From: Hansschlegelia zhihuaiae | GTDB lineage: Bacteria; Pseudomonadota; Alphaproteobacteria; Rhizobiales; Methylopilaceae | Direction: 5' to 3' | Assembly: GCF_004103825.1 (NCBI RefSeq) | Contig: NZ_RYFI01000020.1 | Span: forward strand, 42,655-77,786 | Length of the DNA stretch: 35,132 nucleotides | Shown: positions 9,128 to 23,822 of the stretch, piece by piece | How positions within the stretch are numbered: the stretch's first letter is position 1 | How the letters are laid out: the number at the start of each line of letters is the position of its first letter | Program-made: the position numbers and the translations under genes | The notes under the pieces: model-generated | What the model was told of the DNA's origin: nothing | What the model saw: only the letters and a program-made list of their open reading frames with translations | The model's database searches: none

Positions 9128-10047
9128 GACCGCGCCTCCATGGTCTCCCGCGGATTCGTCCCGTGCTCGGGCGTCCAGTCGCGCAGGAAGGCTTCGAGCT
9201 CGGGATCGGGCTTGCCGATCCTGACCCGCAGGACGGCGTAAAGATCGCCCGCCGGCCGACCCTGACGCGCCGGGATGCCGCGGCCGCGCAACCTGAGCTC
9301 GGTCCCGCTGTCCGAGCCCGCCGGAACGCGGACCCGCACCCTGCCGCCAGGCGTCGGAGCCTCGACCGGACCGCCCAGAACGGCTTCCTTGAGCGTGACG
9401 GGCAGCTCAAGACGGATGTCGTCCCCTTCTCTCGTAAAATAGGGGTGCGGCTCCACCGTCAACTGCACCAATGCGTCGCCGGACGGCCCGCCGTTCCAGC
9501 CTGGGCCGCCCTCCCCCTTGAGACGCAGGGTCTGGCCGTCCTCCATCCCAGCCGGAATCTTCAGGTCGAGCGTTTTGCCGTCGGGCAATGTCAGGCGGCG
9601 CGTCGCGCCGTTGACGGCGTCGAGGAACGCGACCGAAAGACTGTAGAACTCGTCCCGCCCGCGCAGCTTGATCTCGCCGTCCGCGGAACGGCCGCCGCCG
9701 AACATCGAGCCGAAAAGATCGCCGAGGTCGTCCGCGGCCCAACCCTCGGCCGAGGGGCCGCGGCTGTAACGGCGTCCGGCGCTCCCCTCGGCGTGGTCGC
9801 GATAGGACCGCCAGGCGCGGCTCGGTTCTCCGGATGCGTCGATCTCGCCGCGATCGAACTGAGCCTTCTTCTCCGGATCGGACAACAAGGCGTGCGCAGC
9901 CGAGATCGCTTTGAAGCGCTCCTCAGCCTGGGCGTCCCCCGGATTGAGGTCCGGATGGTGCTGCTTTGCGAGTTTGCGATAGGCCGCGCGTATGTCGTCC
10001 GCGCTGGCGTCCTTGGCGAGGCCGAGCGTCGCATAGGGATCATCCAA
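9124..10047 (-). CDS. cbpA: DnaJ-class co-chaperone CbpA (curved-DNA-binding protein)
   Basis: This 307-residue J-protein would stimulate DnaK ATPase and deliver unfolded substrates. The J domain spans residues 1-70 with the essential HPD at 31-33. A Gly/Phe-containing linker follows (about 75-130, including DLGDLFGSMFGGG), then two beta-rich substrate-binding domains (about 135-290) with the signatures TLPDGKTLDLKIPAGMEDG and LRLRGRGIP. There is no zinc-finger CxxCxGxG region, which separates CbpA from true DnaJ. It is the first gene of the cbpA-cbpM operon. Its upstream side holds IS110-derived debris, so this operon may lie near the edge of a transferred stress island. Confidence 0.92.
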   Translation of the reverse strand: MDDPYATLGLAKDASADDIRAAYRKLAKQHHPDLNPGDAQAEERFKAISAAHALLSDPEKKAQFDRGEIDASGEPSRAWRSYRDHAEGSAGRRYSRGPSAEGWAADDLGDLFGSMFGGGRSADGEIKLRGRDEFYSLSVAFLDAVNGATRRLTLPDGKTLDLKIPAGMEDGQTLRLKGEGGPGWNGGPSGDALVQLTVEPHPYFTREGDDIRLELPVTLKEAVLGGPVEAPTPGGRVRVRVPAGSDSGTELRLRGRGIPARQGRPAGDLYAVLRVRIGKPDPELEAFLRDWTPEHGTNPRETMEARS

Positions 10048-10271: not shown

Positions 10272-10409
10272 TCATGTGTCCGGCCAGATCAGAAACTCTG
10301 ATGACCTCCGCCCGTCCAGCCTCCGGCGAAGGACGATTGCGCCCTCCTGGTCGACACCGTGGACCTCGAACACGTGTTTGGCGAGGTCGAGACCGATCGA
10401 CGAGGCCAC
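10272..10409 (-). pseudogene. IS110-family transposase, N-terminal remnant
   Basis: Read on the minus strand from GTG at 10409, 45 codons give a protein start containing SIGLDLAKHVFEVHGVD and then EGAIVLRRRL. This is the hallmark N-terminus of IS110-type DEDD transposases, with the first catalytic Asp in GLDLAK. The frame then diverges and stops at 10272. The rest of the roughly 340-residue transposase, including the C-terminal serine domain, is missing. It is a relic of an earlier insertion, useful as a sign of past mobility at this border. Confidence 0.75.
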
Positions 10410-10655: not shown

Positions 10656-10674
10656 TGGTAGCGGAGGAGGGACT
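10656..10674. repeat. attL: 19-bp copy of the tRNA-Met 3' end
   Basis: TGGTAGCGGAGGAGGGACT is identical to 23746-23764, which is the last 19 bases of the tRNA-Met gene (minus strand) including CCA. The bases immediately outside the repeat differ on both sides (G versus T to the left, T versus C to the right). This is therefore a true limited repeat and the expected product of integration into a tRNA 3' end. Confidence 0.9.
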
Positions 10675-10995
10675 TACAGTATAAATCTAAGCGATTGAGT
10701 TCATTTCAGAAATAAATTCCCGTCACGCCAAAGATACCGTTGTTTGTACCGACCGGTGAAGCACGCTAGCAGCTAAGCTATGAGGGTGTGGACAAGTCGG
10801 ATATGCACTGAGTCGTGTGGCCAAAAAATGAGGCAGCGTCGGTAAAGTAGCTTTCACCATTTAAACCACGTCGGAACGAGTGGCTTCAGACGCAAATTAT
10901 CTCAGTAATGCCGCTGCCGCCAATCCTTGAATCAAGCCCCTTGAGTTGCGCGCGCGCGCGAGGTTCAACTGACGAAGTAGCGGGAGATTCAGCAT

Positions 10996-12189
10996 ATGGC
11001 GCGCGCTCCGAAGAAGGCCGGGGAAGCCCCCGCCCAGAAGCCGATTGAAGAAACGATCAAAGAAGCGAATGCCAAGGTGGAGAGCGAGGTTGCGCGTCGA
11101 AAAAGGGTCGTGCGGAACTTCCCGGCAGCACCTTTTGAGGAACCTTTAGGGTTTGCCCGAGAAATATTCGACTTCGGCAGCGGCAGCCCGGTTCGTCGGC
11201 TGAGCCTATTCGACCACATTGGGCGAACGCCAGAAAGCGGCGGCAGTCGCCAGCTAATTACTAATTCAAACAAATATGGTTTGACTAAAGGCGGCTATCA
11301 ATCGGAGATGATTGAGCTAACGGATGATGGCGCAAGGGCTGTTGATCCTGAAATACCACCAAGAGATCAAGCACGAGCGCGCATAAAACTTGCTGTCGAA
11401 GACATAGAGATATTTGCTAAGCTACATGAGAGATTCGTCGGAAAAGCGCTTCCAGCTAAAGCTGCTTTAGTTGACGCGGCGAAGGAGTTCGGTGCCAGCG
11501 ATGACGCAGCTCAGGAAGCCATAGATACTTTTATCTTGAACTTAAGATTTGTAGGTCTGCTTGTGTCCTTATCAGGCGCAGAGCGCATTGTTTCGAAAGA
11601 GCATGCTCTCGACCAACTTCCATCATCAGGCTTGGTAGAGAGGCCGTCCGCGCGACCCAATCAGGCGAGCGCCTCTGTCGTAACCGCCGAGCATGCAAAG
11701 TTTGAATCCACGTGCTTCTATATTACGCCAATTGGCAGTCCTGATAGCGAGGAGCGAAAGCATTCGGATTTGTTTTTGGGCTCTTTTGTAGAGCCCGCTC
11801 TCGAAAATTTTGGACTTACAGTGGTAAGGGCTGACGGGATAGATAAGCCTGGTGTTATCACTAAGCAAGTTATCGAATATATAGTTAGGTCTAGACTCGT
11901 CATAGTTGATCTTTCTTTTCATAATCCCAATGTATTTTACGAACTCGCAATCCGCCACATGATGAAGTTGCCAATTGTACAGATTATCAGGAAGCGAGAT
12001 TCTATACCATTTGATATAAACCAAATGAGAACAATCATTATCGATAATACGGACATATATTCGCTGCTTCCAAAGCAAGCGTCATATCAATCTGAAATAT
12101 CGTCTCAGGTGCGACGTGCATTAGAAAATGCGGATAACGTCGAAACGCCCATCTCGACTTATTTTCCAAGTTTGAAAGTTTCATTTTAG
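10996..12189 (+). CDS. Winged-helix plus NDT/TIR-like domain protein, possible defence gene
   Basis: The 397-residue product begins with a basic, Lys/Ala-rich segment (1-40). A winged-helix-like region follows (about 60-115, including LITNSNKYGLTKGGYQSEMIELTDDG) and a second helical region (130-205). The C-terminal domain (about 238-350) has FYITPIGSPDSEERKHSD, a mid-domain VIVDLSFHNPN, and VFYELAIRH with Glu316. This is the pattern of nucleoside 2-deoxyribosyltransferase-like proteins related to TIR and SLOG folds, several of which act on NAD+ or nucleotides in anti-phage defence. The ATG at 10996 has GGGAGA nearby. Its last nine bases overlap the convergent terL end. The 3' half is clearly AT-richer than neighbouring genes, a sign of cargo. 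The defence role is inference from fold and position. Confidence 0.6.
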   Translation: MARAPKKAGEAPAQKPIEETIKEANAKVESEVARRKRVVRNFPAAPFEEPLGFAREIFDFGSGSPVRRLSLFDHIGRTPESGGSRQLITNSNKYGLTKGGYQSEMIELTDDGARAVDPEIPPRDQARARIKLAVEDIEIFAKLHERFVGKALPAKAALVDAAKEFGASDDAAQEAIDTFILNLRFVGLLVSLSGAERIVSKEHALDQLPSSGLVERPSARPNQASASVVTAEHAKFESTCFYITPIGSPDSEERKHSDLFLGSFVEPALENFGLTVVRADGIDKPGVITKQVIEYIVRSRLVIVDLSFHNPNVFYELAIRHMMKLPIVQIIRKRDSIPFDINQMRTIIIDNTDIYSLLPKQASYQSEISSQVRRALENADNVETPISTYFPSLKVSF

Positions 12190-13959
12190 TATGTTTATCC
12201 AGCTTGACCTAGCCACATTTGACCTTCTATCTGTAAACCTGCCTTTCGCAGAAACTTCCTGCTCTCTTCGTTCCAATGACACGTTGACCAAGCTCCGGGC
12301 GGCGAACGCATAGACAAGGCAGTCCAGCGCCTCCGCGCGCCGTCCCGGTAGCCGTTCAAACGCCCGGTAAGGCTGTCCACGAACGTAGCGCACCACGCGC
12401 CGCTCGGACGCCAGTTGCTCGAACCATGTGAGGCTGAGCGACGCCCCGAAGCGGATCGACGTGCCCGCCTGAAGTCGGTTGACGATCTGGCTCTTGACCG
12501 CATCCACGCCCACAAGGATCAGCCGCAGCGCCTTCGCCTTGGACATCTCCGCCATCGGCCGCGCGAAGCCAGCCACGCCCTTGCCAGCGAACACGCGGCG
12601 CATCGTGCGCGGCCGGGCGAAGCTATAGACCGCATCGGCGTGGCCGCCCGACCCCGAGTCCACGATTGCGGCGTCAACTCGGAGCGTTCCGCCGTTCGGG
12701 TGCGGCCACATTCGGCGGAGCATGTCGTCAACCTCCGCCCAGGTATCGGACTCAAGAGGCGATCCCCACACGACATCATGCGCGAGCACGAGCGCCGCGC
12801 CGTCCTTCGTCCAGCCCACGGTGCTGATCTCGACTCGATCGTCCTGCACGTCGCACCCGGCAGTGACGACAAGCGTCTCGGGAGGGATGGCGTCGAGGCC
12901 GAACGGCTCGCGGCGGTTTGCGAGGGCGCCTTCGTCCAACTCTTCCCCATCGTCGCGCCACGCCTCCCCGAGCACAGTGTTGACGAAGGACTGGAGCGTC
13001 TGCGGGCTCTTCTTCGCCTCCAGAAACTCCGCCGCGAGCCGCCCCCATGCGGCGTTCGGCAGAAGGCTCACAAGCGCGGAGACCCGATAGCCGTGATGGT
13101 CGCGGACGTGCGGCGCGGTCGCGCGCCAGCGGCCCGAACGGATGAACGCGGCCTTGGCCGCATCTTCGACGACGCCTCCGCACGAGGGGCATGCCCAGAA
13201 GGCGCGCTCGGGCTCGCCATCGGGCCAACGGATATCGGCCCAGCGCAGTTCATGGCGCGCGCCGCAAGACGGGCATTCGGGCTCATAGACGCGCCGGTCG
13301 GATCGCTCATAGGCCCGCAGGATGCGGCTCGTGCTCTCGTGGACGGGCGTGGAGCCCATGACGATCTTCCGGTTGCCGAAGGTCGCCGTGCGGCGCTCCG
13401 CGAGCGCCACGGGGTCGCCTTCGCCGCGCACGTCCACTTCAAAGCCGTCCACTTCGTCGAGCAGCAGGACGCGCGCGGTGTGGCCGCGAAGGTTGCGGGG
13501 AGCGCGGGCGGAGACGAGCTTCAGCGATCCGCCCCGGAAGCGGCGGCTGAAGAGCGTGTCGCGGTCGCTTTCCGCCGACGACAGCGCGGCCCGCAGCGAT
13601 GGGCTCTCAGCGAAGGTTGGCTCGATGTTGCCCACGATGAGGTCGCGACAGTCGGACTCCGCCGGGAGCACTACCAGGATCGGTGCGGGGTCATTAGCGA
13701 CGAAGTGCCCGAGCATGGACACGGCAAGCTGCGTGTAGCCGACGCGAGCGCTCTTTAAGATGGACACGCGCTCCACTGCGGGGTCGCCCATGCTGCGGGC
13801 GATCTCGATTTGATGCGGCCACAGACGCATCCGCCCCGGATGCGCCGCGAGGCTCGACGGGAGATGCACGTTGGCCTCGACCCATGTGGAGAGGTCGAGC
13901 AGTGGCGGCGGCCTCAGCGCGGCCATGGCGTCGCGGCGAACGGCGGCGAGGTCAGCCAT
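12181..13959 (-). CDS. terL: Phage terminase large subunit (GpA family)
   Basis: The 592-residue DNA-packaging motor has an N-terminal ATPase and a C-terminal nuclease. Motifs seen: P-loop-like KSARVGYTQ at 69-77, Walker B VLLLDEVD at 164-171, coupling motif GSTP at 202-205, and a CPSC/CPSC zinc ribbon at 229-232 and 257-260. Nuclease-type acidic motifs follow, AGCDVQDDRVE near 365-375 and DSGSGGHADAVYSF further on. The zinc ribbon between ATPase and nuclease is typical of lambda GpA. It is coupled to terS by an 8-base overlap and ends against the convergent NDT-like gene. Length is near the family's 600-640, so it looks intact. Confidence 0.92.
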   Translation of the reverse strand: MADLAAVRRDAMAALRPPPLLDLSTWVEANVHLPSSLAAHPGRMRLWPHQIEIARSMGDPAVERVSILKSARVGYTQLAVSMLGHFVANDPAPILVVLPAESDCRDLIVGNIEPTFAESPSLRAALSSAESDRDTLFSRRFRGGSLKLVSARAPRNLRGHTARVLLLDEVDGFEVDVRGEGDPVALAERRTATFGNRKIVMGSTPVHESTSRILRAYERSDRRVYEPECPSCGARHELRWADIRWPDGEPERAFWACPSCGGVVEDAAKAAFIRSGRWRATAPHVRDHHGYRVSALVSLLPNAAWGRLAAEFLEAKKSPQTLQSFVNTVLGEAWRDDGEELDEGALANRREPFGLDAIPPETLVVTAGCDVQDDRVEISTVGWTKDGAALVLAHDVVWGSPLESDTWAEVDDMLRRMWPHPNGGTLRVDAAIVDSGSGGHADAVYSFARPRTMRRVFAGKGVAGFARPMAEMSKAKALRLILVGVDAVKSQIVNRLQAGTSIRFGASLSLTWFEQLASERRVVRYVRGQPYRAFERLPGRRAEALDCLVYAFAARSLVNVSLERREQEVSAKGRFTDRRSNVARSSWINILK

Positions 13960-14437
13960 CGGACAGCGCCTCCAGCGCAGCGCGGATTTCGGAGTCGACC
14001 CTAGCGACGGCGGCGCGGTCCAATTCGGGAAGACGGCTCGGGATCGCCAGCATGGCGGCGCGCACGTCCGTCAGGATCGACGCCCACTCCGCCGTCACGT
14101 CGGACGCCCGGAGGAGGTCGCCTTGCGCAAGCGAGTTCGCAGTCTCCAGCTTCACGGCCTGCGCTTCGGCCGTGCGGGTTTTTGCGGCCGTCCATTCCGC
14201 ATCCGACCGGCCGCGCCGCCGCTGCCCGAGATATCCGACGATGCTGCGACGGGTTGCGAATGTGTCCCGGCCTATTTTCTCAACGGCACCCGACTTGGCG
14301 AGAACGTCGAGGTAGCGTGTCGATACGCCGAGCAGTTCCGCGAGGTCAGCAGCCCGCATGCGGCCAGGCAAATCAGGGTGCCCATCGCCGCCGATGAGAT
14401 CGCGTCTGTCTAATTCGCGTTGACGCGCCGAGATCAT
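13952..14437 (-). CDS. terS: Phage terminase small subunit (Nu1-like)
   Basis: The 161-residue protein would recognise the packaging site and load terL. Residues about 25-60 form a Nu1-type winged helix (MRAADLAELLGVSTRYLDVLAKSG), followed by a long Ala/Glu/Arg-rich helix and an acidic C-terminus likely to contact terL. The stop overlaps the terL start by eight bases. The frame is open to 14527, but the upstream 30 residues are Pro/Arg-rich and unlike the family, so the ATG at 14437 is chosen. Together with the primase it forms a leftward operon. Confidence 0.8.
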   Translation of the reverse strand: MISARQRELDRRDLIGGDGHPDLPGRMRAADLAELLGVSTRYLDVLAKSGAVEKIGRDTFATRRSIVGYLGQRRRGRSDAEWTAAKTRTAEAQAVKLETANSLAQGDLLRASDVTAEWASILTDVRAAMLAIPSRLPELDRAAVARVDSEIRAALEALSDG

Positions 14438-14752
14438 CGCAGGAATCCGATTTTGTTTTTGAGTTTGGAGAGCGACACGTCGGGGTCTGGGAGCCCCGCA
14501 ACCCGGCACCCCCGAAGAGGGACCCATGCATGTCGGTTGTTATGCGGAGTTACAGCCCTACGCCTCAGCCTCCCAACCCGCGAGAAGCTCAAGCCCAAGA
14601 GAATCTTGGACTGGAGAGGCTGAAAGGGTAAAATCCTTAGATGTGTGTACGCGCGCGCGTGCGGGGGCAAATATACCTTCAGCCTCTCCAGCCTCTCCAC
14701 ATTTAGAGAATCAACGGGTTGAGCCTCTCCGCCCAGCCTCTCGCCGCCCCTC
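14438..14752. repeat. AGCCTCTCC repeat cluster, possible replication origin
   Basis: Between the primase stop and terS lies a 315-base gap without a gene. AGCCTCTCC occurs in direct orientation at 14681-14689, 14690-14698 and 14722-14730, with an 8/9 copy at 14735-14743, and in inverted orientation at 14613-14621. CTGGAGAGGCTGAA (14611-14624) and TTCAGCCTCTCCAG (14678-14691) form a perfect 14-bp inverted repeat around an alternating GC tract (about 14650-14661). P4-type primases bind short iterons near their own gene, so this is a candidate origin. A transcription-termination role for the inverted repeat is also possible, though its 53-base loop makes that weaker. Confidence 0.5.
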
Positions 14753-16945
14753 CTAATCATCGAAGCCATCCCGCGCCCGCACGCCGCGCCACCCCGCTCC
14801 GCGATTTCGTCCCAGCAATTCGGCCTTAGAAAACCCGGCCTCTTTCAGCTTGATGGGAAATGTGCGCGTCCGGCTGTACCGCTCTTTGACGCCATTCTCC
14901 GCGCACCAGTCGTTCCACGACTCCCAAAGCCGCTGAGATGTCTCAACGTTCTCCGCGTCGAGGTCGCATCGTTCCGCAAGCCATCGACCGATATCGTTCT
15001 CGGCTTCGAAGTAGTCGTTGGTCGCCGCCTGCACGGCCTTGGGCTTGGCGAGTCCCTCGCGCTGCCAAACAAGGCAGCCTTGCAGCGCCCATGAAAGTAT
15101 TCCCGCGCGCTCGCGCTTAAGCTTGGTCGTAAGGTCGGGATCAGGACGCGCGGGCTTTACGTTGAATTCAATTATATTGAAGCGGCGCCGGATTGCGTCG
15201 TTCACGCTGCTGAGCGCGGGGCGATGATTTCCCATCACTGTTAGCTTGAACTGCGGCGTGTATTCGAAGAAGTCCTTGTGCAGAAAGCGGGCCGCCACAA
15301 CGTCGCCGCCCGTTATTTGTGTGATCCGCTGGGAATTCCATGTGCTGCCTTCGGTCGTCTCCGAAGTTACGACAAGGCGGGCACCGACGAGGCGCGCAAG
15401 CTCGGTTGGGTGCTCTGTGAACGCTCTGCGCTCGAACGTCGAGACCGGCGCCGTTGTGGCATAGTCGCCGAGCACGGCCTGAAGTGTGTTGAGGAAAGTT
15501 CCTTTACCGCGTCCCCCGTCGCCGTACAGGAAAAAGAGGGCGTGTTCCTTCGTGTCGCCTGTCAGGCAGTAGCCTGCGACCTTCTGCAAATAGGTGATGA
15601 CCTCGGGATCGCTGTTCGTCGCCTCGCGGATGAACCGAATCCACTGCGGGCAGTCCGTAGCCGGGTCGAACCGTTCGAGAGGAACGGGCGCAACGACTGA
15701 ACATTTCGAGATCATATCTTCGCGGCGGGCCGGTCGCAGCAGCCCCGTCCGCAGTTCGACAACACCTCCCGGTGTTCCGAAAAGGTAGGGGTCGCGATCC
15801 CATTCGTCTGATGTGATCGCGAGGGCAGGATTAGCTTGGGCCAACGCCTCGACGCCCGACGCGGCTGTTTTTCGAAGCAGCGCTTTCGCCTTCGGATTAC
15901 CTTTTGCAAGTTCGGCGGCAAGCGAAGCGGCGTAATGGAACGCGCAGCGGGTCTTGTCGCGCCGCCAACGGGCACCGTTCCAGACGAACCATGATTTCGC
16001 GTCGTGGTCGAAGCGCAATTCGTCGGCGAAGCATTCGGCGAAAGTCTGCGCGACCGAAGATTCGGAAAGGTCGTCGAGCTTCGGTGCGCGCTCCCACGCG
16101 CGACCGACTCCTCGTTCGCCGCTCTCCTGCGCCCACTCCGCCAGATCGGAGTTGCGCCCCAACTCTTTCTCGAAGTCGCGGAACGCGCCGCCTTCCGCCC
16201 TTACTCTGATCGCCAGGCGGAACGCACGGCCGCTGCGGCTTTCATCTCGCGACTTTGACGCTTTGCGCCCGAGGAACGCGGGACCGGCCTCCTCGATCAA
16301 CCATCGCAAGTCTTCGAGTGGGACCGTGCGTAGCTCGACCGGAAACGGTTGATCCATCTGACGCCCGGTTACGGCGAAGTATCGGCCGCCGAGATGGAGA
16401 GCGATTTCGTCGTGGGAGCCGCGCGAAAAGCTCTTCGACCAATCGGTCTTTGTGAGTTTGCGGAGGGGCGCCAGATCGGCGGGGTTATAGAAAAAGAAGA
16501 GCTTCACGCCTCGCCGGCTTGGCGACACTTCGCTGTAGGTGTCGAAGCGTGCGACGATCTCGCGAGCCTCGCGCGAGAAGCGCCTGGTCTCAATGTCGAG
16601 GCATGAGTCGAGGTCGATCCCCCCGAGGGCGCGACCATCGGCGAGTTCGCCGAGCACCAAGCCGACGCCATCGTATTCCCTAGCTGCGCGCTGCGCGCAT
16701 TCGAGACTAGCCCACGTTTCCGGATCATTTGAAGATGCTTCACGTCCACTTCTGGCGGCATACGGGACCTTAGTGCGCCCGTTACCTCGTAATACATCTT
16801 TCCATACTAGCCATCTGTTGTCGTCGATTATTTGACTGAGACCGTGAATGGCCTTATCAGTATCGACTATCACTGCTAGTGTCCTCGTCTTGGTACTGCT
16901 CGTGGCCCCGGCCGATCTTGCGACGGTCAGCCGGGGCTCTTTCAT
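14753..16945 (-). CDS. P4-type primase-helicase (phage/plasmid primase)
   Basis: This 730-residue replication protein has an N-terminal primase-polymerase-like region (about 35-200) with GGIDLDSC around Asp111 and Asp113, and a D5-N/SF3 helicase at about 430-610. The helicase has Walker A GDGGRGKGT at 475-483, a beta-strand RLVVTSET at 523-530, sensor-1 MGNHRP at 571-576 and the Arg-finger segment AIRRRFN. The C-terminal part (about 640-720) is a helical DNA-binding-like region. It resembles the alpha protein of satellite P4, which primes, unwinds and binds its origin. It is the first gene of the leftward operon and starts 57 bases from the divergent regulator gene. It carries no obvious ribosome site, so leaderless translation is possible. 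Confidence 0.88.
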   Translation of the reverse strand: MKEPRLTVARSAGATSSTKTRTLAVIVDTDKAIHGLSQIIDDNRWLVWKDVLRGNGRTKVPYAARSGREASSNDPETWASLECAQRAAREYDGVGLVLGELADGRALGGIDLDSCLDIETRRFSREAREIVARFDTYSEVSPSRRGVKLFFFYNPADLAPLRKLTKTDWSKSFSRGSHDEIALHLGGRYFAVTGRQMDQPFPVELRTVPLEDLRWLIEEAGPAFLGRKASKSRDESRSGRAFRLAIRVRAEGGAFRDFEKELGRNSDLAEWAQESGERGVGRAWERAPKLDDLSESSVAQTFAECFADELRFDHDAKSWFVWNGARWRRDKTRCAFHYAASLAAELAKGNPKAKALLRKTAASGVEALAQANPALAITSDEWDRDPYLFGTPGGVVELRTGLLRPARREDMISKCSVVAPVPLERFDPATDCPQWIRFIREATNSDPEVITYLQKVAGYCLTGDTKEHALFFLYGDGGRGKGTFLNTLQAVLGDYATTAPVSTFERRAFTEHPTELARLVGARLVVTSETTEGSTWNSQRITQITGGDVVAARFLHKDFFEYTPQFKLTVMGNHRPALSSVNDAIRRRFNIIEFNVKPARPDPDLTTKLKRERAGILSWALQGCLVWQREGLAKPKAVQAATNDYFEAENDIGRWLAERCDLDAENVETSQRLWESWNDWCAENGVKERYSRTRTFPIKLKEAGFSKAELLGRNRGAGWRGVRARDGFDD

Positions 16946-16953
16946 ATTGCATT

Positions 16954-16974
16954 ATCCTACGTGATATGTAGGAT
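16954..16974. promoter_or_regulatory. Palindromic operator ATCCTAC-N7-GTAGGAT between divergent operons
   Basis: Seven-base perfect arms around a 7-base centre lie midway in the 56-base gap between the primase (minus) and the MerR-like regulator (plus). Each arm contains TAGGAT, a 4/6 match to a -10 hexamer in the outward direction, so repressor binding would cover both promoters. The likely binder is the product of the adjacent 17002 gene or a helper-phage factor. This is inference from symmetry and position. Confidence 0.55.
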
Positions 16975-17001
16975 GTAGCAAATGGGGAATGGAGAAAGCG
17001 A

Positions 17002-17568
17002 ATGAGCAGCTACACTGTCGGCGAAACGGCAGCCCTTCTGGCGGCGCAGACCGGCCAGCCTGCCGATATGATCGCCCGGCAGCTTCGGTCATGGATTCAG
17101 CAGGGACTGGTTATGCCTGCCGAGCGCGAGGCTCGAGGGACAACCGGCCAGATTGCAGCGGCGCTGTTCGATCAGCGCGCCGTTGCAGCCCTTCGCATCA
17201 TGATGGCGCTGTCGGCCATGTCGCGTGGCGCCCTAGTCGGTTCTTGGCAGGCTATGCATTCGGCCGCCGACGCTCGACTCGAGCTTCCCGCAATCGATTC
17301 AACGTTTCCGCCGCGCGGGATCGACGCTGTAATCAGAAGTATCCGTGAAAATGACGGATGCCACTGGTCATTCGTAACAATTCAGAAACTGAACGCCAAG
17401 ACTGGAGAGCGATTTCATTTAGGCGGCTTCATTCGTGATGATCAGAAAGACTATCCGGAGTCCGATCCGCGCTCGAATTCAGCCATGTGGCGCGAGGAGG
17501 GGCTAGTCCACGAAGGAAAGCACATCATTGACGCGTCTGCGCTGCTCGCGCCGATCCTCGCGGACTGA
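17002..17568 (+). CDS. MerR-like HTH regulator of the satellite
   Basis: The 188-residue product begins with a MerR-type winged helix: YTVGETAALLA, a second helix ending ARQLRSWIQQGLVMPAERE, and a wing ending in GQIAAALFDQRAVAALRIMMAL (to about residue 75). The remaining 110 residues have no recognised domain and no effector-binding cysteines, so this is a phage-type rather than metal-sensing member. GGAGAAAG lies just before the ATG. It heads the rightward capsid operon, six bases before the portal gene, and lies next to the palindromic operator. It is therefore a good candidate for the autoregulated switch controlling both operons. Confidence 0.65.
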   Translation: MSSYTVGETAALLAAQTGQPADMIARQLRSWIQQGLVMPAEREARGTTGQIAAALFDQRAVAALRIMMALSAMSRGALVGSWQAMHSAADARLELPAIDSTFPPRGIDAVIRSIRENDGCHWSFVTIQKLNAKTGERFHLGGFIRDDQKDYPESDPRSNSAMWREEGLVHEGKHIIDASALLAPILAD

Positions 17569-17574
17569 CTCCCA

Positions 17575-18936
17575 ATGCTCGATGCTGCTCGCTCAGCCAT
17601 TGGCCGCCTGATGCGCCGCTCGGCGAAGCCCGAGTGCGCGCGCCGCTTCGACGGTGCAGCGGGCGGTCGGCGGTTGGGCGGCGTTGGGACGTTCGGCCCG
17701 ATCAACCCGGAGGTCGGCGCGGCGGCATCCATGGTCCGCAGCCGCGCTCGCTATCTGACGCGGAACAATCACTGGATCAGCAACGCGGTCGCGAACTGGA
17801 CAACTGCGCTCGTCGGCTCGGGCATCCGCCCCACGAGCGAGAGCGTGGAGTCCGTCAACGCCTTCGACGGTTGGGCGCTCGACGCTGACATGGACGGCCG
17901 CACGGACCTTTGGGGTCTTCAGGCCACCATAGCCCGCGCACTCGTCGAGGACGGTGAGTCATTCGTCATTCTCCGGGCCGACGAAGACGGCCTCCGCGCA
18001 CTCGTGATCCCGGCCGAACAGGTTGACGAGTCGATGACCCGCGACCTCGACGGCGGGAGTTATATCGTTCAAGGCGTCGAGTTCGACGTTTCCGGCCGCC
18101 GCGTCGCCTATCACGTGCTACCGCACCGTCCGACGCAGGCATTCGCGAGCTATGCGCCGCCTGTGCGCATGGACGCCGCCGACGTGCTGCACGTCATGGC
18201 GCCGATCGCGCCGGGGCAGGTGCGCGGCGTGTCGTGGCTCGCGCCCATCATCCTGCCCGCCAATGAACTGGATCAGCTTTCCGACGCCCTTCTCGTGGGC
18301 GTGAAGATCGCTGCCATGCATGCGGGCTTTCTGATCGATCTCAACGGGACGGGGGAGCCCTTCGAAGGCGATCTGTCCGACGTCTCCATGGAGCCGGGCA
18401 TCATGCGCCGCGTTCCGGGAGGCTTCGACGTCAAGTTCTCGACGCCGCAGCAGGCGCAGCAGACCGCCGAGTTCCTGAAGCACAATCTTAGGGGCCTGGC
18501 GGCTGGTCTCGGCCTGCCGAGCCACATGCTCGACGGCGATCTGAGCGGGGCGAACTATTCAAGCCTTCGCGCCGGGCTTCTGCCGTTCCGCGCCCGCGTC
18601 GAGCAAGTGCAGTACGGCGTGCTCGTGCCGCAGCTTCTCCGTCCCGTCTGGCGACGCGTCCAACTGCTCGCGGGCGATCCCGAGGCGACCGCCGAATGGA
18701 TCATGCCGAAGCCGCTTCAGGTCGATCCGCAAAAGGACGTGGAAGCGGACGTCGCTGAGATCGAGGCCGGTCTCACAAGTCGCCGCCAGAAGGTCGCGGC
18801 TCGTGGTTGGAGCGTCGAGGAATTGGATGCCGAGATCGCCGCCGACCGCAAGCGCGAGGCTTCGCTCGGGCTGGGCTTTGGCGTGAGTCCTCAGCCGCAG
18901 TTCAAGCCTGACAATGAGGAAAATCCCGATGCCTGA
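17575..18936 (+). CDS. Phage portal protein (lambda GpB family)
   Basis: The 453-residue product would form the ring at the capsid vertex through which DNA enters. Family features include the N-terminal MVRSRARYLTRNNHWISNAVANWTTALVGSG region (split by short gaps in conservation), the stem-like YSSLRAGLLPFRARVEQVQYGVLVPQLLRPVW segment near 325-360, and the C-terminal VDPQKDVEADVAEIEAGLTSR motif with RGWSVEELDAEIAADR. Length is somewhat below the usual 500 but all regions are present. It begins six bases after the regulator stop and its end overlaps the next small gene by eight bases. Confidence 0.9.
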   Translation: MLDAARSAIGRLMRRSAKPECARRFDGAAGGRRLGGVGTFGPINPEVGAAASMVRSRARYLTRNNHWISNAVANWTTALVGSGIRPTSESVESVNAFDGWALDADMDGRTDLWGLQATIARALVEDGESFVILRADEDGLRALVIPAEQVDESMTRDLDGGSYIVQGVEFDVSGRRVAYHVLPHRPTQAFASYAPPVRMDAADVLHVMAPIAPGQVRGVSWLAPIILPANELDQLSDALLVGVKIAAMHAGFLIDLNGTGEPFEGDLSDVSMEPGIMRRVPGGFDVKFSTPQQAQQTAEFLKHNLRGLAAGLGLPSHMLDGDLSGANYSSLRAGLLPFRARVEQVQYGVLVPQLLRPVWRRVQLLAGDPEATAEWIMPKPLQVDPQKDVEADVAEIEAGLTSRRQKVAARGWSVEELDAEIAADRKREASLGLGFGVSPQPQFKPDNEENPDA

Positions 18937-19150
18937 CGCGAACCTTTTGGCAGCGATGACGCTGGTGCAAAAAATGCAAGTCATCACGGACTTACATCAG
19001 CACGGCGTGAAGCTGACGCGCGCGCAGATGCGTCGATACCTCGGTTGTTACGCGGAGGACGCGTTTGACCGCATCGAAGACCTTACTTCGCACATCACAT
19101 TTACAGGCCCAGACGGCGAACCGATCGCGACAGCGATGCCGAGGCATTGA
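18929..19150 (+). CDS. Small protein between portal and protease-capsid gene
   Basis: This 73-residue protein is of unknown function. It is helical with LAAMTLVQKMQVITDLHQHGVKLTRAQMRRYLGCYAEDA in its first half, which could be a small helix-turn-helix. It starts inside the portal gene end (ATG at 18929, with GAGGA about eight bases before). It ends with TGA overlapping the ATG of the next gene by one base. The tight coupling on both sides supports it as a real gene of the capsid operon; its role in head assembly is a guess. Confidence 0.6.
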   Translation: MPDANLLAAMTLVQKMQVITDLHQHGVKLTRAQMRRYLGCYAEDAFDRIEDLTSHITFTGPDGEPIATAMPRH

Positions 19151-20931
19151 TGTCCGACGTCCTCACTCGCCGCGTGGGAGCGATCGGCCCGAGCAGCTTC
19201 GACGAAGCCGCTATGACGGTGGAAGCAGTCGTAAGCACCTATGCGGACGTCGCCCGTCGCGACAGTCGCGGCCCCTACGTCGAACGGCTCGACGCAGCCG
19301 GGCTTGATACGCGTCGCATCGTCGGCGCGCCGCTGCTCGACGGGCATCGGCAGGGCGGAAGCCGTGACGTCATCGGCGTCGTTCAGAGCCTTCGCCACGA
19401 GCCGGGCCGACTCGTTGCCGTGCTTCGGCTGAGCGCCGCTCAGGACGTCGCGCCCGCCGTCGCCAAAATCCGCGAGGGCATCCTTCGCGGCGTCTCTGTC
19501 GGCTACCGGGTCGCCCGCTGGGCCGAGTCCATCATCAACGGCGAGCGCGTCCGTACGGCGGCGGCGTGGTCGATCTTCGAAGTCTCCGCCGTGCCGATCG
19601 GGGCTGATCCCGACGCCAGCTTCAGGAGTGAGCCCATGAGCGAGAACGACGAACTGCCGACCGTAGAGGCGCCCTCGATCGAGATGCCCGAAGCGCAGCA
19701 GGCGCAGATTCGCAGCTTGGCGGAGGTCGCGGGACTGACGCGCGGCTGGGCGGAAGATCGGATCGACGAGGGGCTTTCGGTTGAGGACGCCCGCAAGCGT
19801 GTTCAGGACGAACTTCGCCGCCGCTCGGCGGCCACTCCTCACATCCGCACGGCTTCGCCTCAGAACGATGGCGTCGCCCGGTTCCGCGCGATGGAAGACG
19901 CGCTCGCGACCCGCAGCGGCGTCGTGATCGAGGATGCTCGTGCAGATGCGGCGCGCCCCTACATGGGCTTCAGTCTCCGCGACTTTGCGCGAGCTTCGCT
20001 TGAGGCGCGCGGCGTCTCGACAGCTGGCATGGACCCGGACGCGCTGTTCCGGGCCGCGCTTCACACGACGAGCGACTTTCCGCAGCTTCTGACGGGCGCC
20101 GGGCGACGGACGCTGCTCGCTAGCTTTACGGCCGCCGCATCCCCGCTGAAGAGCCTCGCACGGCAGGGTTCTCGGGTGGACTTCCGAACGGGCTCCACGC
20201 TTCGCCTTGGCGAGATCGGGGCTCTGCAGAAGGTCAGTGAGGCGGGCGAAATCAAATCGGTTTCCCGATCCGAAGCCGTCGAGGCTTACGCGCTCGACAC
20301 CTATGGCGCGCTATTCACGATCAGCCGCAAGGCGCTCATCAATGACGACCTCGGGGCGTTCAACGATTGGGCGTCGGCGGCAGGACAGGCTGCGGCGCAG
20401 ACAGAGGCCGCGCTTCTGTGGTCGCTGCTCAGTCAGTCGAACGGCGCCGGGCCGACGATGGGCGATGGCAAGCGCCTCTTCCACTCGGACCACGGCAACA
20501 CGCTGACAGGCGCGCCCCTGAGCGTCGAGGCTCTGTCTGACGCGCGCCTCGCCATGCGTCAGCAGACCGGACTCGACGGCAAGACGCGCATCACGGTCAC
20601 GCCGAAGTATCTCGTGGTCGGTCCCGAGCTTGAGACGGAAGCCGAGAAGGTGCTCGCCTCGATCTACGCGGCGACCACTTCGGACGCGAACCCGTTCAGT
20701 CAGAAGCTCACGCTGCTCGTGGAGCCACGAATCATCGACGATTCATGGTTTGTGTTCGCGGACCCCGCGTCCGCGCCCGCGCTCGAATACAGCTACCTCA
20801 GCAGCGCGCCAGGGCCGCAGATGAGCGAGCGCGAGGGCTGGGAAGTCCTGTCCCGCGAATTCCGAGTTGTGCTCGACTTCGGCGCGGGAGCGCTTGATTG
20901 GCGCGGCGCCGTCCGCAATCCGGGCGCCTGA
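19150..20931 (+). CDS. Prohead protease-major capsid protein fusion
   Basis: The 593-residue polyprotein has two parts. Residues 20-160 match a prohead (S78/HK97-like) protease: LLDGHRQGG with His66, GVSVGY with Ser116, and AWSIFEVSAVPIGAD with Glu144. A charged linker (about 163-240) resembles a scaffold/delta segment. Residues 250-593 match the Mu gpT/HK97-fold major capsid protein, with LKSLARQGSRVDF, YGALFTISRKALINDD and GDGKRLFHSDHGN. Self-cleavage would release mature capsid subunits. The start is ATG at 19150, overlapping the previous stop (TGATG). Fused protease-capsid genes occur in some phages, but here it saves space in a small element. This is the key evidence that the element makes its own capsid. 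Confidence 0.85.
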   Translation: MSDVLTRRVGAIGPSSFDEAAMTVEAVVSTYADVARRDSRGPYVERLDAAGLDTRRIVGAPLLDGHRQGGSRDVIGVVQSLRHEPGRLVAVLRLSAAQDVAPAVAKIREGILRGVSVGYRVARWAESIINGERVRTAAAWSIFEVSAVPIGADPDASFRSEPMSENDELPTVEAPSIEMPEAQQAQIRSLAEVAGLTRGWAEDRIDEGLSVEDARKRVQDELRRRSAATPHIRTASPQNDGVARFRAMEDALATRSGVVIEDARADAARPYMGFSLRDFARASLEARGVSTAGMDPDALFRAALHTTSDFPQLLTGAGRRTLLASFTAAASPLKSLARQGSRVDFRTGSTLRLGEIGALQKVSEAGEIKSVSRSEAVEAYALDTYGALFTISRKALINDDLGAFNDWASAAGQAAAQTEAALLWSLLSQSNGAGPTMGDGKRLFHSDHGNTLTGAPLSVEALSDARLAMRQQTGLDGKTRITVTPKYLVVGPELETEAEKVLASIYAATTSDANPFSQKLTLLVEPRIIDDSWFVFADPASAPALEYSYLSSAPGPQMSEREGWEVLSREFRVVLDFGAGALDWRGAVRNPGA

Positions 20932-21167
20932 TGAGCGCCCGCGACGCACAGTGGCTCGCAAAGCTGCGGGCCAAACGGGACGCGCTCATTGAGGCGCGTC
21001 TCGAAGGCGTCCGCGAGCTTCAGGACCAGAGCGGCGAGCGCATCGTCTATCGCAGCGACAACGAGATGCGCGCCGCGATTTCCGACGTGAACCGTCTCAT
21101 TCAGGACGCGGAGCGGGCGAGCCCGTCCACTATCCGCTTCCGCACCTCGAAAGGATTGGATCGATGA
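20931..21167 (+). CDS. Head-tail joining protein (gpW-like)
   Basis: The 78-residue product has the pattern of small gpW-type joiners: an N-terminal helix with LAKLRAKRDALIEARLEGVREL, a short beta element SGERIVYRSDNEM, and a second helix AAISDVNRLIQDAER. Such proteins sit on the portal and prepare the head for tail docking. Start ATG at 20931 overlaps the capsid stop by one base, and its end overlaps the DUF2190 gene by four (ATGA). In a tail-less satellite this would be the piece that docks helper tails. Confidence 0.7.
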   Translation: MSARDAQWLAKLRAKRDALIEARLEGVRELQDQSGERIVYRSDNEMRAAISDVNRLIQDAERASPSTIRFRTSKGLDR

Positions 21168-21481
21168 GGAACTACGTTCAGAAAGGCGAGAACGTCACCA
21201 TCCCGAGCCCGGCCGACGTCAAAAGTGGCGACGTCATCATCGTCGGGGGGCTGTCGGGCGTTGCCGCAGGCGATGCCGCGCCGGGCTCGGACCTCGACAT
21301 CGTAACGGTGGGCGTGTTCGATCTACCCAAGGTCGCGGCTGAAGGCTTTGAGATCGGCGATCCCGTCTATTTCGACGAAGCCTCCAAGCTCGTCACCACG
21401 GACGACGCCAACGCTCGCATCGGCGTCGCTGTGACGGTCGCCGCGAACCCAAGCGGCGGCGTCCACGTCCGGCTTGGCTGA
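21164..21481 (+). CDS. DUF2190 capsid-associated protein
   Basis: The 105-residue product begins MRNYVQKGENVTIPSPADV, followed by VKSGDVIIVGGLSGVAAGDAAPGSD split into beta strands, and ends GIAVTVAANPSGG-like HVRLG. This is the DUF2190 pattern of small beta-rich proteins encoded next to capsid genes, probably decoration or head-stabilising proteins. It is the last gene of the rightward operon; a strong hairpin follows at 21520. Confidence 0.85.
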   Translation: MRNYVQKGENVTIPSPADVKSGDVIIVGGLSGVAAGDAAPGSDLDIVTVGVFDLPKVAAEGFEIGDPVYFDEASKLVTTDDANARIGVAVTVAANPSGGVHVRLG

Positions 21482-21519
21482 GGATAGACGGAGAGGTTTG
21501 AGCCGACGCCTTTCTGTCT

Positions 21520-21556
21520 AAAGGCCCTCTCGTCACCAATAGGCGGGAGGGCCTTT
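21520..21556. terminator. Bidirectional terminator hairpin
   Basis: AAAGGCCCTC (21520-21529) and GAGGGCCTTT (21547-21556) form a perfect 10-bp stem with a 17-base loop. The stem ends in A's on one side and T's on the other, so it can terminate both the capsid operon and the convergent cyclase-like gene, whose stop codon overlaps its edge. Confidence 0.8.
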
Positions 21557-22338
21557 CAGCCCCACGCACCTTCAGGAGTTCCCATATTGGCGATCAACTC
21601 CGTCCAGTCGATCGGAACGATATGGGAGAAATCAAAGTCGGTCTCGATGAGTTTTTTTGTTAGGCCGGGGTGACGGTAAGAGATCATTTTCCACGCATTG
21701 GCGTGCTTAACTCTTACCTGCTCTTGTAAACTCTGATCGTTTGAATATCGGAAAACTCTACTGAGATAGGTAAGCTCATAAACAAGCCAGCCCTCGATTC
21801 CAGGCCCTGTCACGTGCTCGGCATGAATTGGATAGTCTTCATAATTAAAGCTTATTGAATTTAATGTCTGCATTATGTGCATATAGTACGAATTATCATC
21901 GAACTTCGTCAGATTGAATACATCGGAATGCTCTGAAAGAGCCGCGTCCAAGAATACGCCTGTTGATTTTATGGTTTTTTCTATCTCATAACATCTGATG
22001 AGAGCCTCACCGTAATATGCATCAAGATTTTTCATCTCAAAATGCTCGAACTCTCCAACGGTTATGTAAGCCCTGAAGTGGATGTCGCTAGTAATAATTC
22101 TGTAAAACAGATCTTGAGCAAATTCAGCCAGCCACATGACTGCCGAATTGATGTTATCTAACCAAAATTCAGAGCCATAAACAATTATAGTATCGGAAAA
22201 TACTATACATCTAAAGTCTCGATCGGTATGTACATTCAGTTCGTCGATATTTTTATAAAGTCCTTTTATGTCTTTACCGGACACAACCATGTCCTTAAAG
22301 CCAAGTATGTCTATATAGAGAAAAACTCTATCTGACAT
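21556..22338 (-). CDS. Class III nucleotide-cyclase-like protein, candidate Pycsar-type signal synthase
   Basis: The 260-residue cytoplasmic protein has the palm-type cyclase pattern: FLYIDILGF with Asp10, a second metal-site-like FSDTIIVY with Asp49, and then FRAYITVGEF and YYGEALIRCYEIEK around 90-140. The spacing of about 40 residues between the two aspartates fits class III adenylate/guanylate cyclases and the related cyclases of Pycsar defence. No GGDEF, CdnE-type or sensor domain is present. The gene is strikingly AT-rich compared with all neighbours, including the integrase 12 bases away, which marks it as foreign cargo. A bacteriophage-triggered signalling role is inference; the product nucleotide is unknown. 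No adjacent cNMP-binding effector is seen. Confidence 0.55.
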   Translation of the reverse strand: MSDRVFLYIDILGFKDMVVSGKDIKGLYKNIDELNVHTDRDFRCIVFSDTIIVYGSEFWLDNINSAVMWLAEFAQDLFYRIITSDIHFRAYITVGEFEHFEMKNLDAYYGEALIRCYEIEKTIKSTGVFLDAALSEHSDVFNLTKFDDNSYYMHIMQTLNSISFNYEDYPIHAEHVTGPGIEGWLVYELTYLSRVFRYSNDQSLQEQVRVKHANAWKMISYRHPGLTKKLIETDFDFSHIVPIDWTELIANMGTPEGAWG

Positions 22339-22350
22339 GATTTTCTTCTT

Positions 22351-23559
22351 TCAAGGATAGCTTCTGGCGATCTTATTCGACTTCATTGATTTCAACTGGT
22401 TGGCCCACCAGTCCATCAGCTTCACGCGTTCGTCCCAATATTTCGACCGATTGTAGATCGATCGAATGCGATCCGCTGGCACATGCGCGAGCTGTGCCTC
22501 GATAACGTCAGGGCTCCATTTGCCCGACTCGTTCGCGATCGTGCTGAACGTCGAGCGAAAGCCGTGGGCGCTCATCTCCTCGCCTGTGTAGCCCATGCGC
22601 CTAAGCGCGCTGTTCATGGCGTTTTCCGACAGCGGGCGTAGCACCGACCTGATCGAGGGAAAGATCAGTCGCTCGTCTCCCGAAAAGCGTTTGATGCCGT
22701 TCAGCACGACGGCAGCGGCAGGGCTGAGCGGGACGTCATGCGCGCGCCGCATCTTCATTCGTTCAGCCGGGATGCGCCATACTCCCGACTCAAGGTCGAT
22801 CTCCGCCCACGTTGCAAAGCGCACTTCCCCGGGTCGCGCTGCCGTGAGCGCAAGAAATTTCATGGCCGCTGCGAGCGTCGGCCAACCATCATAGTCGTCG
22901 AGCGCGCGCATAAGGCCGCCCAGCTTTTTTGGGTCGGTGAGCGCGGCGCGATTTACCACCTGAACCGGAAGCAACGCGTTCCGAAGGGCGCTTGTCGGGT
23001 CGCCAGTTGCTCGCAAGGTCGCGACTGCGTGACGAAAGACAGCGCCGATCGCCCCGCGCGTTTTATGGGCCGTTTCTCGACGGCCGGATGCCTCAATCTT
23101 TTGGAGCAGCTTGAGCACGTCGGCTGCGGTGACCTGCGCAATCGGCTGATCCGCAAGCGATGCGCTCAATGTCTTCAGATACCAGTGCGATTTTTCAATG
23201 GTGGCCTCTGACCGTCCCGAGGCGCGCATGCGCACAAGATATTCGTCAGCGAGGGCGCCGAACGTATTCTGCGTTTCTGCCTCTGCACGATGCTTTGCAG
23301 CCTTTCGGTCCGCCGAGGGGTCGGTCCCGTGCGCTAAGAGCTTTCGGGCCTCAGCCCTGCGCTCGCGAGCATCGGCAAGCGTGATCTCCGGGTACTTCCC
23401 AAGGCTGATCGTTTTGCGCGTACCGTCAAACCGATAATCCAGCCGCCACAGCTTCGAACCGGCTGGATTTACGAGCAGATAGAGCCCCTGCTCGTCGCTC
23501 AGTTTCATAGGTTTTTCAGCGGCTTTCGCTTTTCGAACTGCCAGATCGGAAAGGGGCAT
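22351..23559 (-). CDS. int: Tyrosine-type integrase (P4-like, DUF4102 N-terminus)
   Basis: The 402-residue recombinase catalyses integration and excision at tRNA-Met. The N-terminal arm-binding domain (about 1-85) has MPLSDLAVRKAK and LYLLVNPAGSKLWRLDYRF. A core-binding domain follows (about 105-190). The catalytic domain has ARPGEVR with the first Arg, HGFRST with the His-x-x-Arg pair, LAHV with the second His, and the Tyr in RSIYNRSKY. The frame is open to 23778 but that would enter the tRNA and att region, so the ATG at 23559 is chosen. It lies 190 bases from attR, the standard arrangement. Confidence 0.92.
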   Translation of the reverse strand: MPLSDLAVRKAKAAEKPMKLSDEQGLYLLVNPAGSKLWRLDYRFDGTRKTISLGKYPEITLADARERRAEARKLLAHGTDPSADRKAAKHRAEAETQNTFGALADEYLVRMRASGRSEATIEKSHWYLKTLSASLADQPIAQVTAADVLKLLQKIEASGRRETAHKTRGAIGAVFRHAVATLRATGDPTSALRNALLPVQVVNRAALTDPKKLGGLMRALDDYDGWPTLAAAMKFLALTAARPGEVRFATWAEIDLESGVWRIPAERMKMRRAHDVPLSPAAAVVLNGIKRFSGDERLIFPSIRSVLRPLSENAMNSALRRMGYTGEEMSAHGFRSTFSTIANESGKWSPDVIEAQLAHVPADRIRSIYNRSKYWDERVKLMDWWANQLKSMKSNKIARSYP

Positions 23560-23581
23560 TTGCGGCCGCTCCAAAGGGTCG

Positions 23582-23633
23582 TGACGGTACGATCCTGGCG
23601 GCTGACGGTAGGCGAGTCCATTTCGTACCGTCA
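23582..23633. promoter_or_regulatory. TGACGGTA repeats upstream of int
   Basis: TGACGGTACGA (23582-23592) and TCGTACCGTCA (23623-23633) are perfect 11-bp inverted copies; a partial direct copy TGACGGTA lies between (23603-23610). They occupy the integrase promoter region just before the ATG at 23559. They could be an autoregulatory or Xis-binding operator. Confidence 0.5.
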
Positions 23634-23649
23634 AATTGGCGGTATTTGT

Positions 23650-23740
23650 TGATATCCGCTGATACGCGATGATACGGAAAAAGCCGTCAAACTCCTCATT
23701 TCTGAGGAATTCTGATGCATCCTGATATGGCCTGATATGG
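23650..23740. repeat. Phased TGAT direct repeats beside attR
   Basis: TGAT begins at 23650, 23660 and 23670, and again at 23713, 23723 and 23733. These are two triplets each with exact 10-base phasing, and the last two units are TGATATGG. The second triplet ends just before the core att repeat at 23746. One-turn phasing is typical of DNA-bending protein sites; recombinase arm or excisionase sites are the natural guess. Confidence 0.5.
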
Positions 23741-23745
23741 AAATT

Positions 23746-23822
23746 TGGTAGCGGAGGAGGGACTCGAACCCCCGACACGCGGATTATGATTCCGCTGCTC
23801 TAACCAGCTGAGCTACTCCGCC
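23746..23822 (-). tRNA. tRNA-Met (CAU anticodon), elongator type
   Basis: A 77-base cloverleaf is visible: acceptor stem GGCGGAG/CTCCGCT, D arm GCTC/GAGC, anticodon stem GCGGA/TCCGC with loop ATCATAA giving CAU, T arm GGGGG-TTCGAGT-CCCTC, and an encoded CCA end. Its last 19 bases are the attR core, so integration left the gene intact by restoring its 3' end. tRNA-Ile2 also has a CAU anticodon in DNA, but this acceptor and T-arm sequence is that of elongator Met in Hyphomicrobiales. Confidence 0.93.

Follow-up and report, generated by a model that had tools for sequence, protein, structure and literature searches.

The DNA analysed here, referred to as the window, is a stretch of 35,132 nucleotides of the Hansschlegelia zhihuaiae genome (contig NZ_RYFI01000020.1). 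Positions 10,656-23,764 of the window form a bounded element of 13.1 kb, flanked by perfect 19-bp direct repeats. Its gene content and its relatives suggest, with a probability of about 0.83, that the element is a phage satellite, integrated in the chromosome, which builds its head itself and borrows its tail. The satellite probably represents a separate alphaproteobacterial lineage of capsid-making satellites, probably of independent origin, which is set apart from the capsid-forming phage-inducible islands (cf-PICIs) by the published descriptions of their features.

The repeat reads TGGTAGCGGAGGAGGGACT, and its right copy is the 3′ end of a tRNA-Met(cat) gene (Table 1). Twelve genes are read between the repeats. 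In accordance with the earlier note made from the sequence alone, Pfam and PHROG scans and the repeat search place integrase, primase, terS, terL, portal, protease-capsid and DUF2190 genes between perfect attachment (att) repeats. The same scans find no match to tail, holin or lysis families among the element genes. Four genes are without a firm role, namely the 397-aa gene, the 188-aa Reg gene, the 78-aa gene and the 260-aa gene. The description of the element as a complete-looking, tail-less satellite encoding its own capsid is borne out by the att repeats, the gene content, the lack of a tail or lysis match, and the recurrence of the family in other genomes. The 'joiner' of the earlier note has to be reassigned. 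Among the fetched loci, the 78-aa gene between portal and capsid matches only the window's own viral-contig record (L089), and a joiner role is therefore not demonstrated for it. It is the 89-aa open reading frame (ORF) following the capsid gene that encodes the connector, a gpW-like head-tail adaptor, Ad1.

Relatives were collected by searching 397 genomes of the order with the capsid protein (E<=1e-30), which gives matches in 71 genomes (88 places listed). A further scan of genome contigs gives 13 named loci, including Methylopila capsulata (78%), Chenggangzhangella (77%), Hansschlegelia, Sinorhizobium, Bosea, Lutimaribacter, Salipiger and Cypionkella, and a scan of viral contigs gives 35 loci. 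Stretches of 18-20 kb were fetched around 38 of the 88 places, as were two prophage regions from the genome that contains the window. Another 20 stretches, some of them cut by contig ends, come from 398 genomes sampled across the phylum. Core genes were mapped by iterated profile searches.

The relatives fall into two gene orders. In most satellite-type relatives the order is Portal-Capsid-Ad1-Cement-Integrase, and the window fits this order. In tail-bearing relatives, by contrast, Ad1 lies between TerL and the portal, and the tail follows the cement gene. The tail type includes the Rhodobacter phages RcKemmy and RcMamaDuck, Stenotrophomonas phage S1, and tail-bearing prophages. Among 95 loci with a capsid match (the window and ten near-copies included), Ad1 follows the capsid in 69, precedes the portal in 18, and is ambiguous in eight. 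An integrase lies within 5 kb downstream in 59 of the 69 loci with Ad1 after the capsid and in none of the 18 with Ad1 before the portal. With the phylum-sample loci added, there are 75 satellite, 30 tail-type and 10 ambiguous loci (66, 29 and 10 once near-copies are removed). In the 60 satellite loci in which cement and integrase were both located, the two genes lie a median of 453 bp apart; the gap measures 250-650 bp in 51 of these loci and reaches up to 3.9 kb. The gap in the window is 977 bp because a cargo gene lies there. Exceptions to the order are L110 and L112, with cement before Ad1, and L075, L076 and L178, with the terminase genes after cement.

The satellite type, with a usual size of 11-13 kb, occurs in at least 30 of the 397 sampled genomes, with 16 family codes by hand count; three of these genomes (G252, G269 and G363) entered the count through the named loci L035, L036 and L039. 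The 20 phylum-sample loci comprise six satellites, all from the same class as the window, 12 loci of the tail type and two ambiguous ones. Outside the class, 22 genomes have a match, and the ten looked at comprise eight of the tail type and two ambiguous. Direct repeats of 16-53 bp that overlap a tRNA gene are found in 24 of 50 loci scanned, a set that includes tail-type loci and fragments. The tRNA genes used by relatives are those for Met, Arg, Val, Glu, Ser, Gly, Phe, Thr, Pro, Gln and His. The att spans range from 9.9 to 15.4 kb with a median of about 12.1 kb, and 22 of the 24 fall within 10.5-13.2 kb. Gene order is ambiguous in L069 and L082, which are among the 24. Recurrence of the gene block in so many genomes indicates that it is not a product of chance. 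A search of plasmids with the portal gives 123 records, every one below 60% identity.

Phylogeny separates the two types. The portal tree has 94 rows and excludes near-copies and short portals. The 61 satellite rows all group into a single clade with a Shimodaira-Hasegawa-like approximate likelihood ratio test (SH-aLRT) value of 100, the window inside it, and all 29 tail-type rows fall outside. The ambiguous locus L082 places among the tail type, and the tool warns of several long branches in this tree. A capsid tree in which 58 satellite rows are held together has a likelihood 6.3 above that of the free quick tree, with a P value of 0.63 in the approximately unbiased test. The portal tree therefore supports a single origin, and the capsid tree does not reject it.

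The head genes are under purifying selection. The ratio of nonsynonymous to synonymous substitution rates (dN/dS) is below 1 in every pair compared, at 0.08-0.46 for the capsid (15 pairs), 0.06-0.30 for the portal (15 pairs) and 0.04-0.30 for TerL (12 pairs). Between the window and the Methylopila satellite L035 the values are 0.19, 0.15 and 0.10, respectively; integrase pairs are often too divergent for this comparison. In addition, the sequences indicate that modules are exchanged between satellites: identity between the window and the same-genus satellite L049 is 82% for the portal, 77% for the capsid, 58% for TerL, 36% for TerS and 29% for the integrase.

We screened the loci for tail genes at E<=1e-5. 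The queries were tail proteins, plus three lysis proteins, from four phages, prophage L080 and the two resident prophages, and also three satellite tape-measure genes. Relatives with a full tail module between the DUF2190 gene and the integrase, which the earlier note had named as the sign of a deleted prophage, were looked for and not found. No match occurs in 71 of the 75 satellite loci (near-copies included), the window among them, and the remaining four (L064, L070, L074 and L075) each have a tape-measure match. The L070 match is located where the fetched stretch ends and could be outside the element. A 'tail protein' gene of the phrog_166 type accompanies the tape measure in L064 and L074, and L075 has an extra gene resembling one that follows cement in the tailed L080. 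Among the tail-type loci, 25 of 30 have matches, four of the 25 being sources of the queries. The five without a match are L048, which was outside the searched set, three short contigs, and L187. Among the ten ambiguous loci, L082 has a tape measure only and L120 has a tail module. A PHROG scan confirms the tape-measure proteins of L064, L074, L075 and L082. These lone tape-measure genes could set the length of a borrowed tail.

Upstream of terS, many satellites share the motif GGGTCCYTC, followed in many by a CGGGG...CCCCG dyad. The 28 loci used to train a DNA profile include neither the window nor any other member of its genus. The copy in the window (GGGTCCCTC...; 14527-14453 on the terS strand) is a held-out match with E=3e-6 in 1.93 Mb. 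At E<0.01 the profile finds 42 of 57 satellite loci with TerS (28 used for training and 14 not, of which five are near-copies), and none of 25 tail-type loci with TerS, where the best values are 0.19 and 0.69; the resident prophages have no match. The sequence is a candidate cos site, an operator of terS being the alternative.

The sole direct sign of mobility comes from a metagenome contig, L098, in which, at 9443-9786, the integrase is joined to the primase via a stretch that contains the last 21 nucleotides of tRNA-Ser(GGA). As judged from its sequence, this contig is an excised circle or concatemer, joined at att. One of its ends carries what we take to be a random-PCR primer tag, and the ends of L098 are thus uninformative on cos. 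Terminal repeats are absent from all 35 viral-contig loci, five of which cover only part of their contig.

Several observations weigh against a satellite that makes its own head and takes a foreign tail. The fetched loci were chosen mostly by best match first. The query set of the tail screen is limited, with few lysis genes, and divergent proteins may escape it; L187 (19 kb, tail type) is a true miss. The tape-measure genes of four relatives with satellite order and of the ambiguous L082 indicate that not every member is strictly without tail genes. Of the 57 satellite loci, 15 are missed by the cos-like profile, L049 among them. The satellite label needs four changes on the first capsid tree (82 rows) and two on a smaller one without ambiguous rows. 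An FII-like stopper is not recognised in the element, and the neck, like the tail, would therefore have to come from a helper. The two resident prophages are, from their sequences, only candidates for that role. Finally, broken relatives exist: the capsid gene is in pieces in L039 (Chenggangzhangella methanolivorans), a close relative, and is interrupted by a TGA in G284.

Broken capsid genes would also suit a prophage remnant that has lost its tail and lysis genes by deletion, and prophage remnants are common in bacterial genomes. A remnant is nevertheless very unlikely here. The same compact order is found in dozens of genomes at different tRNA sites, no tail-type row falls inside the satellite clade of the portal tree, the head genes are under purifying selection, and the cos-like site is common to many satellites. 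In particular, Ad1 is placed differently from the tail-type loci, indicating that the window does not hold a tail-type module with its tail cut out. Equally improbable is a small virus that needs no helper, with a virion that is tail-less or has a tail built from unrecognised genes. Capsid, packaging and replication genes are all present, and four genes without firm function would leave room for such a tail. However, apart from Reg, the unknown genes of the window match, among the fetched loci, only the window's own record, no lysis gene is recognised, and a gpW-like connector, as in lambda, is expected to bind a neck and tail.

For the satellite reading, the genes suggest the following cycle. 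In the presence of an active tailed helper phage, the element would excise and replicate by its own primase-helicase. TerS and TerL would cut and package the element DNA at the cos-like site upstream of terS. The DNA would enter small heads closed by Ad1. The helper would supply the neck and tail to which these heads attach, and would also lyse the cell. Reg is a likely switch for the head genes, and the cargo near both ends is probably for anti-phage defence or accessory. The two tailed prophages in the window genome, L083 (contig C25) and L084 (contig C6), have related TerL and portal proteins; the former has a sheath, a tube and a long tape measure, and the latter has an RcKemmy-like tail.

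Table 1 Features of the element in the window and tape-measure genes of relatives
Feature	Position	Strand	Basis
attL, 19-bp core	10656..10674		direct repeat, identical to 23746-23764
397-aa cargo gene with a TIR-like C-terminal region, candidate defence effector	10996..12189	+	PADLOC PDLC00733 'Effector TIR' 5e-9, residues 248-348
TerL, gpA-type terminase large subunit	12181..13959	-	PF05876 and PF20454; phrog_15 4e-194
TerS, terminase small subunit	13952..14527	-	phrog_57 4e-15; likely start ATG near 14437 (from translation)
Conserved cos-like sequence, candidate packaging signal	14453..14527	-	just upstream of likely terS start; DNA profile
Primase-helicase	14753..16945	-	D5_N 1e-23, DUF5906 7e-10; phrog_6088 2e-116 DNA primase
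Reg, 188 aa, directly upstream of portal; N-terminus MerR-like, fast evolving	17002..17568	+	MerR_1 E=0.019, below cut-off
Portal, lambda family	17575..18936	+	PF05136 2e-73
78-aa small gene between portal and capsid	18914..19150	+	no Pfam or PHROG family above cut-off
Prohead protease-major capsid fusion	19147..20931	+	PF25209 9e-48, phrog_4523 7e-167, Peptidase_S78 2e-5
Ad1, gpW-like head-tail adaptor, 89 aa, after capsid (family signature)	20898..21167	+	phrog_2545 2e-12; position across relatives
Cement/decoration protein, DUF2190	21164..21481	+	PF09956 9e-25
260-aa cargo gene	21556..22338	-	phrog_23933 4e-8 (unknown function)
Tyrosine integrase	22351..23562	-	PF13356, PF22022, PF00589
attR, 19-bp core, tRNA-Met 3′ end	23746..23764		repeat and tRNA prediction
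tRNA-Met(cat), integration site	23746..23822	-	ARAGORN
Lone tape-measure genes of relatives	L064:5621-8204 (-); L074:11748-13664; L075:2476-4860 (-); L082:11060-12967

The capsid model has an HK97-type fold (AlphaFold, predicted local distance difference test (pLDDT) score 82.5), and its Foldseek matches include the SaPI1 and HK97 capsids; the sequence has no match in a PDB sequence search. TerL matches GpA_ATPase (1e-79) and GpA_nuclease (2e-78). The ORF of the integrase (475 aa) is open to 23778 and begins inside the tRNA gene, and the likely start is an internal ATG near 23562. A promoter scan finds 12 sigma-70-like sites, compared with 3.2 expected.

The earlier note had described the replication as P4-like. 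This holds for the primase-helicase with D5_N and DUF5906 domains and goes no further; in the relative L054, Prim-Pol and AAA_25 take its place. Likewise, the terminase is opposite the capsid in the window, as had been noted, but few members of the family share this arrangement. The block of cargo, TerL, TerS and primase (10996-16945) is inverted relative to most relatives, and among 62 satellite loci with a TerL match the inversion is seen only in the window, its own record L089 and the distant member L105. No inverted repeats of at least 9 bp are found between the ends of the inverted block of the window, and one 10-bp match is found in L105.

Reg has profile matches in seven loci. ORFs at the Reg position were collected by place only in 58 loci, with near-copies and a few doubtful ORFs included, and those of 20 loci align with 15-31% identity to the window protein; as judged from the sequences, they are all likely to be one family. 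The MerR-like reading comes from the sub-threshold Pfam match and the alignment. The AlphaFold model of Reg (pLDDT 88) has no fold match in the PDB at E<=0.001, and ten Reg-position or small genes from relatives have no Pfam family above the cut-off.

Among the fetched loci, the 397-aa and 260-aa cargo genes each match only the window's own record. The 397-aa gene also matches phrog_3634 (5e-40, unknown function), is low in GC (49.6% at 11001-12000), and has no match in a PDB sequence search. The 260-aa gene has no match in Pfam or PADLOC. Relatives have a variable cargo slot between TerL and Reg, mostly on the strand opposite the capsid (for example L040:6714-7691, L057:6210-7127 and L055:5753-6571). 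PADLOC, applied to the cargo of ten relatives, finds REase_II in L057 and weak matches in L036, L040, L055 and L067, with none in the other five. Pfam, applied to eight of these genes, finds MrcB_N in L040 and HEPN in L055, and in L037 a borderline DUF3800. Some relatives thus have restriction-type (MrcB/HNH, REase_II) or HEPN genes in the slot, which possibly serves for defence genes.

The integration site was compared in ten other genomes of the genus. Six of them have an intact tRNA-Met gene beside the same neighbour gene, and four are without that tRNA there. A capsid relative (E<=1e-30) is absent at that place in all six. In none of these genomes is the gene to the left of the element kept next to the tRNA; therefore, the empty site cannot be aligned on both flanks. 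The earlier note had proposed looking for the same block at tRNA-Met in related genomes. A satellite 61-62% identical to that of the window is present at this very tRNA in G269, of the same genus, and other relatives use various tRNA genes. Immediately outside attL lies a short ORF (10272-10409, minus strand), which resembles the start of an IS110-type transposase.

Taken together, it is fairly probable that capsid-making satellites arose in Alphaproteobacteria independently of cf-PICIs. A single old capture of a lambda-gpA-type head module would have moved Ad1 behind the capsid, dropped the tail, and kept its own terminase and cos specificity. The satellites would then have diversified over many families of Hyphomicrobiales and also entered Rhodobacterales and other groups. 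Integrases, replication genes and defence cargo would have been exchanged in the process, and some satellites would later have gained a lone tape measure that would set the length of the borrowed tail. With satellites of this type in at least 30 of the 397 genomes sampled from the order, gene transfer and the spread of defence genes in Alphaproteobacteria could often proceed through them, largely overlooked so far. The position of Ad1 behind the capsid provides a simple diagnostic order, and searches based on the known cf-PICI families may miss it. The family also raises two questions: by what means a head of the gpW type locates a tail of foreign origin, and whether the satellite can determine the length of the tail that it borrows.

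Repeated origins of capsid-making satellites have already been proposed (PMC11389934, PMC10690885; these and the papers cited below are represented by excerpts of their text), and this one would be a further case, distinguished by the type of its capsid, portal and terminase. We recognised no description of this satellite family in the literature searched, a body that leaves most subscription literature outside its scope.

The nearest concept is the cf-PICI. Like the excerpted descriptions of cf-PICIs, the element is integrated, small and tail-less, has its own capsid, protease, portal, connector and terminases, and is expected to use helper tails (PMC10690885, PMC11389934, PMC10803314). The earlier note had accordingly called it cf-PICI-like, an assignment that the families do not support. 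The signature genes excerpted for cf-PICIs are terminases, prohead protease, alpA, head-tail adaptor, Pri-Rep and HNH (PMC10690885, PMC10448857), and a published set of cf-PICI capsids, drawn from 900 cf-PICI proteins, is PF05065 (PMC13230959). In contrast, the capsid of the window is PF25209 fused to an S78 protease; scanned to E 0.1, it matches only PF25209, PF10124 and PF04586, and not PF05065. TerL is of the gpA type and the portal of the lambda type. To E 0.1 in Pfam, HNH has no match in any of the 12 element genes, and AlpA has none either, although a homologue too divergent for Pfam is possible. Membership in the cf-PICI family proper is therefore quite unlikely, despite the same logic and gene functions and a similar size (14 kb on average for cf-PICIs in the excerpt of PMC10803314). 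The PF05065 set, as the excerpt describes it, was collected by means of that very profile and would therefore contain no other capsid type; cf-PICI capsids are said to form three separate clades (PMC11389934), and the name may thus cover several origins. Some of the originally described cf-PICI elements may belong to the satellite family of the window.

Other satellites share parts of this strategy. P4-like satellites, in the excerpted account, have no capsid of their own and redirect helper capsid assembly via Sid (PMC10690885). A P4-like satellite was considered for the window and rejected, the element encoding its own capsid and terminase. Certain E. coli satellites carry capsid and tape-measure genes and lack most of the tail, as do a few members here, so this trait has a precedent in the excerpt (PMC10448857). 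They are described there as being without terminase, prohead protease and head-tail adaptor, whereas the window family has all three. The PISP and cf-PISP satellite-plasmids of Vibrio are likewise tail-less with their own head genes; unlike the window element, they are episomal, with capsids of PF03864 (PISP) or PF05065 (cf-PISP) according to the excerpt of PMC13230959. The Streptomyces satellites MulchRoom and MiniFlayer, reported as unrelated to cf-PICIs, have their own capsid and packaging genes and are a previously described case of this strategy in a lineage of its own. They differ, as far as the excerpt describes them, in having terminal repeats, no primase homologue, virulent helpers and actinobacterial hosts, and MiniFlayer is without a lysogeny module (PMC10690885).

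Among phages, the RcKemmy-like Rhodobacter phages and other phages with a protease-capsid fusion (L048, L124-L129) have homologous portal, capsid and cement genes in the same order as the window, and the listed Rhodobacter phages share 31.7-35.9% capsid identity with the window. In contrast to the satellite, they are phages of 27-86 kb, with Ad1 between TerL and the portal where mapped. Tail genes are annotated in L048, L125, L126, L127 and L129, and the proteins of L124 and L128 are mostly annotated as hypothetical.

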